Shown here one piece after another: positions 16,831 to 19,891 of a stretch of 64,000 nucleotides of DNA. Location of the stretch: NCBI GenBank assembly GCA_018830645.1, contig JAHJSA010000088.1, positions 124,001 through 188,000 of the forward strand, given 5' to 3'. The stretch is from Actinomycetota bacterium. Lineage in GTDB: Bacteria > Actinomycetota > Thermoleophilia > RBG-16-64-13. How positions within the stretch are numbered: position 1 is the first letter of the stretch; every line of letters starts with the position of its first letter. The translations under genes were made by a program, and so were the position numbers. The notes under the pieces were generated by a model, which saw nothing but the letters and a program-made list of their open reading frames with translations, was not told the DNA's origin and searched no databases.

Positions 16831-17271
16831 TCACACCCCCTCTTCGTCCTGGGCGGACTGATAGGCATAGAAGGTCTCGGGGTCCCATATCTCGAAGTGG
16901 TCCCTATGACCCACCAGAAGTACTCTTCCCGAGAGCCTGAGCTCATCGACGACCCCGCTGGGCAACATGATCCGGCCGCCCTTGTCGACGGTCACCTCGT
17001 CCATCGAGCCGTAGAGGTCGCGGATCAGGCTGCTGACCTGGTCGGCTTCGAACTCGTTCAGAGCTTCGATGTACTTGGCGTCGTACTCGTCCCACGACTG
17101 CATGTTGTAGACGCGCACGCACGGTTCGCCGTGCGCGGCGGGCACCAGGTATGCCGTGGAATCGGGAAAGTGCTTGCGATAGCGGACGGGCAGGGTGACC
17201 CTCCCTTTGTCGTCGAGCGCATGCTCGAATCGACTGGTGAAGAAGGCCTTGGTGCGGGGGCGCTCATCCAT
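16831..17271 (-). CDS. mraZ: Transcriptional regulator MraZ
   Basis: 146 aa with two AbrB-like swapped-hairpin repeats: ALDDKGRVTLPVRYR (near residue 20) and VDKGGRIMLPSGVV (near residue 95). MraZ forms a ring and binds TGGG-containing repeats upstream of its own operon, regulating dcw transcription. The ATG at 17271 is chosen over a TTG 12 codons upstream because homology starts after it. No proper Shine-Dalgarno is present, and a promoter-like pair places transcription at or next to the ATG, so the mRNA may be leaderless. Confidence 0.95.
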   Translation of the reverse strand: MDERPRTKAFFTSRFEHALDDKGRVTLPVRYRKHFPDSTAYLVPAAHGEPCVRVYNMQSWDEYDAKYIEALNEFEADQVSSLIRDLYGSMDEVTVDKGGRIMLPSGVVDELRLSGRVLLVGHRDHFEIWDPETFYAYQSAQDEEGV

Positions 17272-17278
17272 GACCCCC

Positions 17279-17307
17279 AATGTAGTCCCATCAGGACGTA
17301 ATTGCAA
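17279..17307 (-). promoter_or_regulatory. Candidate mraZ/dcw promoter (leaderless)
   Basis: On the minus strand, TTGCAA (17302-17307) is separated by exactly 17 bp from TACATT (17279-17284). Each matches four of six sigma-70 consensus bases. The expected transcription start is 7-8 nt downstream, at the A of the mraZ ATG. Confidence 0.5.
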
Positions 17308-17316
17308 CCCTTATCG

Positions 17317-17333
17317 ATGCAATTTCATTGCAT
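17317..17333. promoter_or_regulatory. 17-bp perfect inverted repeat upstream of the mraZ promoter
   Basis: ATGCAAT-TTC-ATTGCAT, 7-bp arms, ten bases upstream of the candidate -35 box. Its size and place suit a repressor or activator operator. The TGCAA...TTGCA core recurs at 17456-17471. No regulator is assigned. Confidence 0.5.
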
Positions 17334-17348
17334 TTCGCGCCACTTCGC

Positions 17349-17394
17349 CCCACTGGTGCACGATGGGGACCCAAAACCTGTGTTCGGGGACCCA
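17349..17394 (-). promoter_or_regulatory. Candidate MraZ-binding boxes (three TGGG repeats, 21-bp period)
   Basis: Minus-strand TGGG motifs end at 17352, 17373 and 17394, exactly 21 bp apart. The two distal copies share the nine bases TGGGTCCCC; the proximal one is TGGGGCGAA. MraZ is known to bind TGGG-type direct repeats upstream of mraZ, usually about 10 bp apart; here the spacing is two helical turns. Confidence 0.6.
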
Positions 17395-17399
17395 CGAAC

Positions 17400-17422
17400 C
17401 CCCGTATCAGCCGGATACGGGG
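17400..17422. terminator. Perfect 9-bp hairpin between pcrA and the mraZ boxes
   Basis: CCCCGTATC and GATACGGGG flank a 5-nt loop. It lies about 100 bp past the pcrA stop, where a terminator is expected, but no T-run follows on either strand. It may be a U-less terminator or part of the mraZ control region. Confidence 0.4.
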
Positions 17423-17455: not shown

Positions 17456-17471
17456 TGCAACGTCTGTTGCA
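17456..17471. promoter_or_regulatory. Second TGCAA...TTGCA inverted repeat
   Basis: TGCAAC-GTCT-GTTGCA, 6-bp perfect arms, 50 bp past the pcrA stop. It shares the TGCAA-N5/6-TTGCA core with the repeat at 17317-17333, suggesting two sites for one unknown regulator. Confidence 0.35.
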
Positions 17472-17521: not shown

Positions 17522-19891
17522 CTAGAGCTTCCTGAGCGGCGCGTAGTCCACGAGGAGTTTCTTCTGCTCGCCCAAGCCCCCGAAGAACACGCGCACGACC
17601 CCACCGGACTCCACCGCCAACACCATGCCCTCGCCGAACTTCGCGTGCACGACCTTGTCGCCCACCGCGAACCCGGCTTCGACAACCCGGCCGTCCGTCT
17701 CTTCGACTCGGGCTCCGCGGGTGGCGGCGCCGGAACCGGCCGGCCCGGCGGCGGGGCTACCGGGAGCCCTTCCGACCCCGGCTCGAGACCCGCCCGCCCT
17801 GTCCGGTGACTCCCGGCGACGTGTCGTCTGACCACGGGCTCCGCGAGATTCGATCAGCTCGGGAGGAATCTCCTTCAAGAAGCGGCTGGGGAGCTGATAG
17901 CCCGCACTGCCGTAGATGGACCTCTGGCGGGCAAACGAGAGGTGCAGCCGCTCCCGTGCCCTTGTGATGCCCACGTAGCACAGCCTGCGCTCTTCCTCCA
18001 GGTTCCGTTCGTCGAGAGCACGGCTGTGGGGGAACATGCCCTCCTCCATCCCCGTCATGAAGACCACGGGGAACTCGAGACCCTTAGCGTTGTGCAGCGT
18101 CATGAGCGTGACCAGGTCCTCCACGTCTTGCATCGAGTCGGCATCGGCGTAGAGACTTATCTCCGCGAGGAAGTCGACCAACCCGCCCTCCGTGTTGTGG
18201 CTGTCGTACTCCTGCGCCACGCCGACGAACTCGCTCAGGTTCTCGAGCCGTCCCTCGGCTTCGAGGGTCCGCGCTTCCTGTAAGGTGGTCAGCATCCCGC
18301 TGTCCTCGAGCACCGCACGCACGATCTCGGCCACAGAGGCCCCCTCCGCCAAGCGTTCCTCCCATGCCCGGAAGGCGGAGTCGAGCCCGAGGTAGGTGGC
18401 ACGGCTGGCCGACGAGAGGTCCTCAGCTTCCTCGGTGAGCGCCAGCGCGGCTCGGTACGAGACGCCCTCCGCGGCCGCCAGCGCCTGCAGACGTCCTTGG
18501 GCGACGGCTCCAAGGCCGCGCTTCGGCGTGTTGACCATCCTCTGGAAGGAGATGTCATCGGAGGGGTTGACGATCACCCGGAGGTACGCAAGCACGTCCT
18601 TGATCTCGGCGCGTTCGTAGAAGCGGGTGCCCCCCAATACTTGGTAAGGGATCTTGTAGCGCACCAGGATGTCTTCCAGCACGCGCGATTGCGCGTTCAC
18701 TCGGTAGAAGACGGCCACCTCACCGGCGCGGCGCCCCGAACGGACGATGGTCTGGATCTCTCCCGCGACACGTCGCGCCTCTTCGTGCTCGTCGCCGCAT
18801 TCGAGCACCACGACTTTGTCGCCCTGGCCACGGTCGGTCCACAGATGCTTCGGCTTCCGACCTCGGTTGTAGGCAACGACGGCGTTGGCGGCATCCAGGA
18901 TCGTGGTGGTGCTGCGGTAGTTCTGTTCCAGCTTCACCACCGTGGCGTCGCCGAAGTCCTCCTCGAACCCCAGGATGTTCTGGATATCCGCGCCACGCCA
19001 CGAGTACACCGACTGATCGTCGTCGCCCACCACGGTGATGCGGCGATGGCCTTCGGCCAGCAACTTCACCAGGGTGTACTGGGCATGGTTGGTGTCCTGG
19101 AACTCGTCCACCAGGACGTAGCGGAACGTCTCACGCAGGTGCTCGAGACGCGAGGGGAACAAGCGCAGGACGTCGACCATGCGCATGATCAGGTCGTCGA
19201 AGTCCATGGCGTTCAGCTCGTACAGCTTTCGCTGGTAGGCGCGGTATGCGGCAGCGGCCACCTCGAGGTAGGCGGACGTCGTCGACTGCACATCCCACGA
19301 GGCCTCCGTTTCCGGGCTTCCGAGCGCGGCGAAGTCGTCCACGTCGACCAGACGGTTCTTGGCGTCGGAGACACGGGCCAGGATCGCCCGCGGCTGAAAA
19401 CGACGCACGTCGTGTCCAAGGTCCTCCAGGACGCGGCGCATCAGGCGCACCTGGTCGTCCTGGTCGTAGATGGTGAACCCCTGCTTGTAGCCGAGCCGCT
19501 CGGCGTCGCGGCGCAGGAGCCGCGCGCAGGCGGAGTGGAAGGTGGAGACCCACATGGTCTGCGCGACCGGGCCCACGAGGTCGACCACCCGCGACCTCAT
19601 CTCGGCGGCGGCCTTGTTGGTGAAGGTTATGGCCAGCACCTCGTATGGCCCGGCCTTACCGCTCTCGATCAGATGACCGATCCGGTGCGTGAGCACCCGG
19701 GTCTTCCCGGAACCGGCGCCGGCCAGCACGAGCAACGGCCCGTCTCCGTGGAAGATCGCAGCCGCCTGCTGATCGTTGAGACCCTCCCCCAGCCGCGAGT
19801 CGGTACTGGTGACGCCCTGGTCCGAAGGAGGCGGCGCGGCGGCGCTGTCGCGCACGGGGGGAGAAGGTCGGTTCTGATCGAAGGGTGCCAC
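17522..19891 (-). CDS. pcrA: ATP-dependent DNA helicase, PcrA/UvrD type
   Basis: Superfamily 1A 3'-5' helicase used in nucleotide excision repair and replication conflict resolution. 789 aa. After a Pro-rich tail of about 35 residues come motif Q (LNDQQAAAI), Walker A (LAGAGSGKTRVLTHR), Ia (ITFTNKAAAEMR), motif II (VDEFQDTN), III (VVGDDDQSVYSWRGA), IV (LEQNYRST), V (TLHNAKGLEFPVVF) and VI (YVGITRARERL). The C-terminal Tudor-like domain (GDKVVHAKFGEGMVL) known to contact RNA polymerase is present. It starts at GTG 19891 without a good ribosome-binding site; TACCAT lies 6 nt before it, so a leaderless mRNA is possible. Confidence 0.96.
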   Translation of the reverse strand: MAPFDQNRPSPPVRDSAAAPPPSDQGVTSTDSRLGEGLNDQQAAAIFHGDGPLLVLAGAGSGKTRVLTHRIGHLIESGKAGPYEVLAITFTNKAAAEMRSRVVDLVGPVAQTMWVSTFHSACARLLRRDAERLGYKQGFTIYDQDDQVRLMRRVLEDLGHDVRRFQPRAILARVSDAKNRLVDVDDFAALGSPETEASWDVQSTTSAYLEVAAAAYRAYQRKLYELNAMDFDDLIMRMVDVLRLFPSRLEHLRETFRYVLVDEFQDTNHAQYTLVKLLAEGHRRITVVGDDDQSVYSWRGADIQNILGFEEDFGDATVVKLEQNYRSTTTILDAANAVVAYNRGRKPKHLWTDRGQGDKVVVLECGDEHEEARRVAGEIQTIVRSGRRAGEVAVFYRVNAQSRVLEDILVRYKIPYQVLGGTRFYERAEIKDVLAYLRVIVNPSDDISFQRMVNTPKRGLGAVAQGRLQALAAAEGVSYRAALALTEEAEDLSSASRATYLGLDSAFRAWEERLAEGASVAEIVRAVLEDSGMLTTLQEARTLEAEGRLENLSEFVGVAQEYDSHNTEGGLVDFLAEISLYADADSMQDVEDLVTLMTLHNAKGLEFPVVFMTGMEEGMFPHSRALDERNLEEERRLCYVGITRARERLHLSFARQRSIYGSAGYQLPSRFLKEIPPELIESRGARGQTTRRRESPDRAGGSRAGVGRAPGSPAAGPAGSGAATRGARVEETDGRVVEAGFAVGDKVVHAKFGEGMVLAVESGGVVRVFFGGLGEQKKLLVDYAPLRKL

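Follow-up and report, generated by a model that had tools for sequence, protein, structure and literature searches.

A probable MraZ operator of six phased boxes at the head of a Thermoleophilia dcw cluster

The gap in front of mraZ in the window, by which we mean the whole stretch of 64,000 nucleotides analysed here, carries six MraZ-type boxes that share one helical phase. We consider it likely that together they form the autoregulatory operator at which MraZ controls the dcw cluster. This bacterial division regulator, conserved very widely, forms a ring, each subunit of which reads one short G-rich box; the operators described for it so far are mostly short arrays with a period of 10 bp. 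The array presented here extends this known type of operator, and is no new kind of system. The split layout of the array, with boxes close to the promoter and a distant cluster upstream, is the unusual trait of this genus. MraZ binding and repression at this putative operator are what we infer from the sequence and its relatives, and the features discussed below are collected in Table 1.

The mraZ gene and its promoter

Both Pfam and the fold identify the protein as MraZ. Its match to PF02381 scores 76.9 bits, against a cut-off of 23, and its TIGR00242 score of 82 bits lies under the equivalog cut-off of 98.35. The AlphaFold2 model of the protein has a pLDDT of 87.5, and a Foldseek search with this model retrieves entries 1n0e, 9qlg, 9r4j and 9sz7 with TM-scores of 0.71-0.85: the structural matches are the MraZ proteins of M. 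pneumoniae and M. genitalium, and for the MraZ entry 1n0e the two scores are 0.81/0.84. Judging by their titles, 9r4j and 9sz7 are cryo-EM entries of MraZ with promoter DNA, and the title of the M. genitalium MraZ cryo-EM entry gives a complex with a four-box promoter. Both half motifs of the DxxxR type, DDKGR and DKGGR, are intact in the window's protein, and residues D20, R24, D96, G99 and R100 are invariant among 16 MraZ sequences of the family.

The gene is the first of the dcw cluster: the open reading frames downstream of it are, by their NCBIfam matches, rsmH, then ftsL, then an ftsI-type penicillin-binding protein. On the other side, a helicase gene of the pcrA/uvrD type ends at 17522, which leaves a gap of 251 bp. 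The core promoter in this gap reads TTGCAA-17-TACATT, with the -10 element 7 nt from the ATG. Since members of the family have the same arrangement, TTGCAT-17-TAAAGT-6-ATG, the mRNA is probably leaderless, with a start point at or next to the ATG. A strict sigma-70 scan of the gap returned no site, the -35 element TTGCAA included, and a search of Rfam returned no known RNA element there.

Table 1. Features of the mraZ upstream region, in window coordinates; boxes and elements are ordered by increasing coordinate, and boxes are named by their position relative to the ATG.
Feature	Coordinates	Strand	Basis and remarks
mraZ CDS	16834..17271	-	146 aa, ATG at 17271; Pfam, TIGR00242, fold match
MraZ-type box TGGG, -8	17276..17279	-	PWM; identical in sister; family boxes at -7/-8
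-10 element TACATT	17279..17284	-	100% conserved in sister; family TANNNT 6-7 nt before ATG
MraZ-type box TGGG, -19	17287..17290	-	PWM; identical in sister; family boxes at -17/-18
-35 element TTGCAA	17302..17307	-	17 bp from -10; 100% conserved in sister; class TTGC-17-TANNNT
17-bp palindrome ATGCAATgaaATTGCAT	17317..17333	-	between the box clusters; fully conserved in sister
MraZ-type box TGGC, -71	17339..17342	-	10-bp partner of the -81 box; pair pattern unique
MraZ-type box TGGG, -81 (third of the trio)	17349..17352	-	strongest match, PWM 12.8
Distal TGGG box, -102 (second of the trio)	17370..17373	-	weak match; TGGGTCC kept in sister
Distal TGGG box, -123 (first of the trio)	17391..17394	-	weak match; same position in sister
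Palindrome TGCAACAGACGTTGCA	17456..17471	.	upstream of the array; family motif TGCAAY-N4-RTTGCA

Six boxes in one helical phase

A sequence-only reading of this DNA had pointed to three copies of TGGG on the mraZ strand in steps of 21 bp, and to a stretch common to the two distal ones. Both are there: the copies start at 17394, 17373 and 17352, that is, at -123, -102 and -81 relative to the A of the mraZ ATG (17271), and the two distal copies have TGGGTCCCC in common. Within the 251-bp gap, the mraZ strand has TGGG five times, at -123, -102, -81, -19 and -8, and the other strand once. A trio with a 21-bp period appears in 0.01% of the dinucleotide shuffles of the gap (about 1e-4), and an evenly spaced trio of any period from 8 to 44 bp in 0.25% of them. 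On the scale of the whole 3.87-Mb genome, both strands taken together, the trio pattern is found 7 times versus 4 times for its reversed control, and three of the seven matches are tandem-repeat sequence: the trio pattern alone is thus not unique, and is no signature by itself.

The array has further boxes beyond this trio, namely a TGGC at 17342 and, over the core promoter, a TGGG at 17290 and another at 17279; of these last two, the -19 box lies within the promoter spacer, and the -8 box overlaps the end of the -10 element and the start point. The -81 box is part of a canonical 10-bp MraZ pair, GTGGGGcgaaGTGGCG, at -82/-72, and the pair's pattern, RTGGGRNNNARTGGNGNNAAA, is matched once in the source genome (G000) and once in a sister genome of the same genus (G006), each time before mraZ. 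Before mraZ, direct repeats spaced by about 10 bp are present in GTGGGGcgaaGTGGCG and in the TGGG copies at -19 and -8.

Boxes were scored with a position weight matrix (PWM) of 14 positions built for the class, for which the 99% and 99.9% background quantiles are -2.4 and 3.6. There are six PWM matches in the interval -220..+15, and they are exactly the six boxes. Their fit to the class consensus aGTGGGG is graded: strong for the -81 box (12.8), good for the -71 and -8 boxes (6.1 and 4.4), and moderate to weak for the -123 box (4.0) and for the -19 and -102 boxes, whose scores of 1.2 and 0.7 are weak. In the boxes of the class, a G precedes TGGG in 93% of cases and a G follows it in 60%; the distal boxes lack features of this consensus, and the -102 box has no consensus G at its position -1.

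The six boxes share a helical phase with a period of 10.42 bp (R 0.99): they sit at turns 0, 1, 6, 7, 9 and 11, and span 115 bp. When the two promoter boxes are placed at random, equal coherence is reached in about 2.4% of the trials, and the phase of the promoter boxes is, on its own, suggestive only. We also considered whether the span of the array points to a ring of 12 subunits, and make no such claim: the span is 115 bp in the window and 113 bp in one family member, but spans in the class do not cluster there.

The sequence-only reading had proposed that 21 bp takes the place of the usual 10 bp, which would put every second subunit of the ring on the DNA. The array itself does not support such a replacement as the rule: the -81 box has a neighbour at 10 bp, and 11 bp separate the two promoter boxes. 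With neighbours at 10 and 11 bp, the mixed array does not imply an alternate use of subunits, and that claim is not needed. The description of the boxes as MraZ-type fared better: location and phase support it, as does the sequence of at least the -81 box and its 10-bp partner, but the distal boxes lack some of the consensus features, and MraZ would be only a presumed ligand there.

Conservation was assessed on one genome of the same genus, the sister G006, whose MraZ is 86% identical; it is the only close relative sampled, and order-level sampling yielded no genomes outside the family. From -130 to the ATG the two genomes align without indels, and the 21-bp spacing is kept; the loss of this spacing in relatives, which the sequence-only reading had named as its refutation, is thus not seen in this genome. 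The sister has TGGG at -123, -102, -81, -19 and -8, and TGG at -71, and the promoter hexamers are invariant between the two. Between -130 and -85, in the distal part, identity is 67%: here, 8 of 8 bases of the distal TGGG copies are kept, versus 22 of the 37 other bases (p 0.027), which suggests a modest excess of conservation for the distal boxes in this one relative. The distal boxes of the sister have PWM scores of -2.4 and -2.2, at about the 99% quantile of the background.

Box spacing in the class, and neighbouring elements

In the same class, 108 regions upstream of mraZ were collected, of which 97 remain once near-duplicates are removed. On the mraZ strand of these 97 regions, the spacing between TGGG copies peaks at 10, 20/21, 30/31, 41/42, 51/52 and 62 bp, and the opposite strand of the same regions has no such peaks. 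There are 73 pairs at 10 bp (1.9 expected), 51 at 20 bp and 13 at 21 bp (1.7 expected), 14 and 23 at 30 and 31 bp, and 24 and 9 at 41 and 42 bp. When boxes are scored with a matrix from which the neighbouring box is excluded, the same phase can be followed over some 60-80 bp, and the period that fits best is close to 10.2.

A promoter is recognisable in 70 of the class regions, and in these the TGG boxes can be placed relative to the first base of the -35 element: they fall at +8, +18, +28, +38, -13 and -23. Slot -3 is almost empty, and the distance from -13 to +8 is 21 bp. Pairs at 21 bp straddle the -35 element in 23 of 37 cases, versus 7 of 124 for pairs at 20 bp (p 1e-12). It follows that two-turn spacing is ordinary in the MraZ operators of the class, and that the 21-bp step mostly reflects a turn yielded to the -35 element of the promoter. 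As this step recurs in the class, two-turn spacing is no proof that alternate subunits are used. A skipped turn without a -35 element is the minority case (in other genomes, 10 of the 32 whose middle slot is empty), and the window belongs here, both 21-bp gaps of the trio being free of a -35 element. Relative to their own -35 element, the six boxes of the window are at +28, +17, -35, -45, -66 and -87, and no box fills the slots +8, -13 and -23, which are usual in the class. The 21-10 module upstream is found again in one family member, L010, whose promoter boxes are also in phase.

Several other elements were seen in and around the gap. The palindrome ATGCAATgaaATTGCAT covers the empty slots -13 and -23, a position beside the -35 element that is taken by boxes in other members of the family; at this place between the MraZ box clusters, another factor may bind. 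The 16-bp motif TGCAAY-N4-RTTGCA, with at most one mismatch, occurs in 11 of 17 mraZ upstream regions of the family (L001-L017), 120-210 bp before mraZ, where 0.06 would be expected. We rejected it as a LexA box: 7 of 8 lexA upstream regions carry GAAC-N4-GTTC instead, and the motif, with the same tolerance, is absent from all lexA and recA upstream regions examined; GAAC-N4-GTTC was not found in the lexA upstream region of G000 itself. A role as the site of a global regulator is not supported either, since with one mismatch it is no commoner than a control in two genomes. Exact copies of the motif lie in frame within an open reading frame for a DnaE-type polymerase, at L136, L137, L146 and L147 (in G000, G006, G001 and G002), about 403-417 residues after FVHLHVHS in the four genomes, in weakly conserved stretches, with three copies in the G001 frame. 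Further copies are found within carB-like open reading frames (L141, L143). A near-palindrome, TGCAACGATTGTTGTA, is identical at L155 (G000:C43:63163) and at G006:C33:97207; in G000 it stands directly before the gene of an RpiR-like regulator.

Just upstream of the array, at 17400-17422, lies a strong hairpin, CCCCGTATC-CGGCT-GATACGGGG, which may terminate transcription of the helicase gene; its counterpart in the sister is only the shorter CCCG-ATA-CGGG. An inverted repeat around the -123 box, GTTCG-N8-CGAAC, is absent from the sister and was taken as chance.

Proposed function and comparison with known operators

Boxes set at whole helical turns would face one side of the DNA, and one ring, or neighbouring rings, could grip several of them. 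In this way MraZ would repress its own gene together with those downstream of it: the boxes near the promoter, over the spacer, the -10 element and the start point, would block RNA polymerase, and the four boxes at 71-123 bp upstream, on the same face of the DNA, would strengthen the complex. The two-turn steps would be part of the design, the class usually skipping the turn of the -35 element, and the window skipping turns without one. That MraZ uses the two distal boxes is plausible, given their phase and the recurrence of such boxes in relatives. In a bolder form, one or two rings would join both clusters over 11 turns, with about 115 bp of DNA wrapped or looped and alternate upstream turns left free. 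We hold this form to be unlikely; if true, the split operator would imply a higher-order MraZ-DNA complex, undescribed for compact four-box promoters.

The distal repeats can also be read as the site of another regulator, for instance a response regulator like MtrA, with MraZ keeping the -81/-71 pair and the promoter boxes. They form a unit, TGGGYCYYC, repeated 21 bp apart, that extends over this length in both genomes, unlike the strong box TGGGGCGAAG, and that occurs in each genome, without mismatch, at this site only. The G before TGGG is missing in three of the four distal copies, versus its presence in 93% of the class boxes, and the mraZ promoter of Dietzia is bound by MtrA (PMC9602371). 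Yet the phase of these repeats is exactly that of the MraZ pair, and no second genomic site points to a separate regulon. In addition, a TGGG placed 21 bp upstream of the first pair recurs in 5 of 16 family members and in 9 of 80 regions from the rest of the class. A separate regulator is, in our judgement, a rather doubtful reading, though one to be kept in mind.

The distal TGGG copies might also be functionless chance matches in a G+C-rich gap, but we find this quite improbable: against it stand the rarity of the trio in shuffles of the gap (1e-4), and the fact that both distal copies are unmoved in the sister although 15 of 37 neighbouring bases differ. The diverged flanks and low scores of the distal boxes do fit it, as does the count over the whole genome, where the trio is not clearly enriched (7 versus 4 for the reversed control). 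There is finally the possibility that the step from -102 to -81 is a relic of an older promoter, whose -35 element occupied the skipped turn before the promoter moved downstream. Both genomes retain a TGCA close to where the class has its TTGC, about 8 bp before a spacer box, and the upstream pair is about 23 bp closer to the ATG in several family members. However, a usable -35/-10 pair is absent there in both genomes, and the step from -123 to -102, also of 21 bp, has no such relic; we regard such an origin as unlikely.

Returning to the preferred reading, an operator of six phased boxes, the class data are of interest in their own right: boxes keep their helical phase over 5-6 turns, interleave with the promoter, and skip the turn of the -35 element. 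MraZ operators can be sought by this concrete and testable rule, which also lets one ask how many subunits of the ring contact the DNA. The split array of this genus would be a natural test of the maximal separation at which boxes are still read jointly. In the open literature, of which our coverage was partial, we found no paper on MraZ operators in this class or on operators with 21-bp steps.

In B. cenocepacia, the operator consists of four repeats of 7 nt with spacers of 3 nt, thus a period of 10 bp, lying downstream of the -10 element and over the start point, and MraZ binds it; the E. coli operator is given as similar (PMC7761207). The operators of Escherichia coli and Burkholderia cenocepacia resemble the present one in having direct repeats of G-rich boxes before mraZ, close to the start point or over it. 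Their arrays are, however, short, contiguous and of 10-bp period, while the array described here is split, extends over 115 bp with steps of 21 bp and one of 52 bp, and has most of its boxes upstream of the promoter. In M. genitalium, MraZ has been shown to repress the dcw cluster (PMC8475190), and autorepression as in these operators is the simplest reading of the window. The operators of Mollicutes, with their AAAGTG[T/G] repeats, have the same type of box (AAGTGG), but the Mollicutes promoter is compact, with four boxes, and the sources consulted on it describe no widely spaced ones. The closest comparison is with mraZ promoters of the same class, which have in common with the window the box, the helical phase, the TTGC-17-TANNNT promoter and the recurrent 21-bp step; in most of them the slots +8, +18 and +28 of the -35 element are filled, whereas the window, without boxes at +8, -13 and -23, has a distant upstream cluster.
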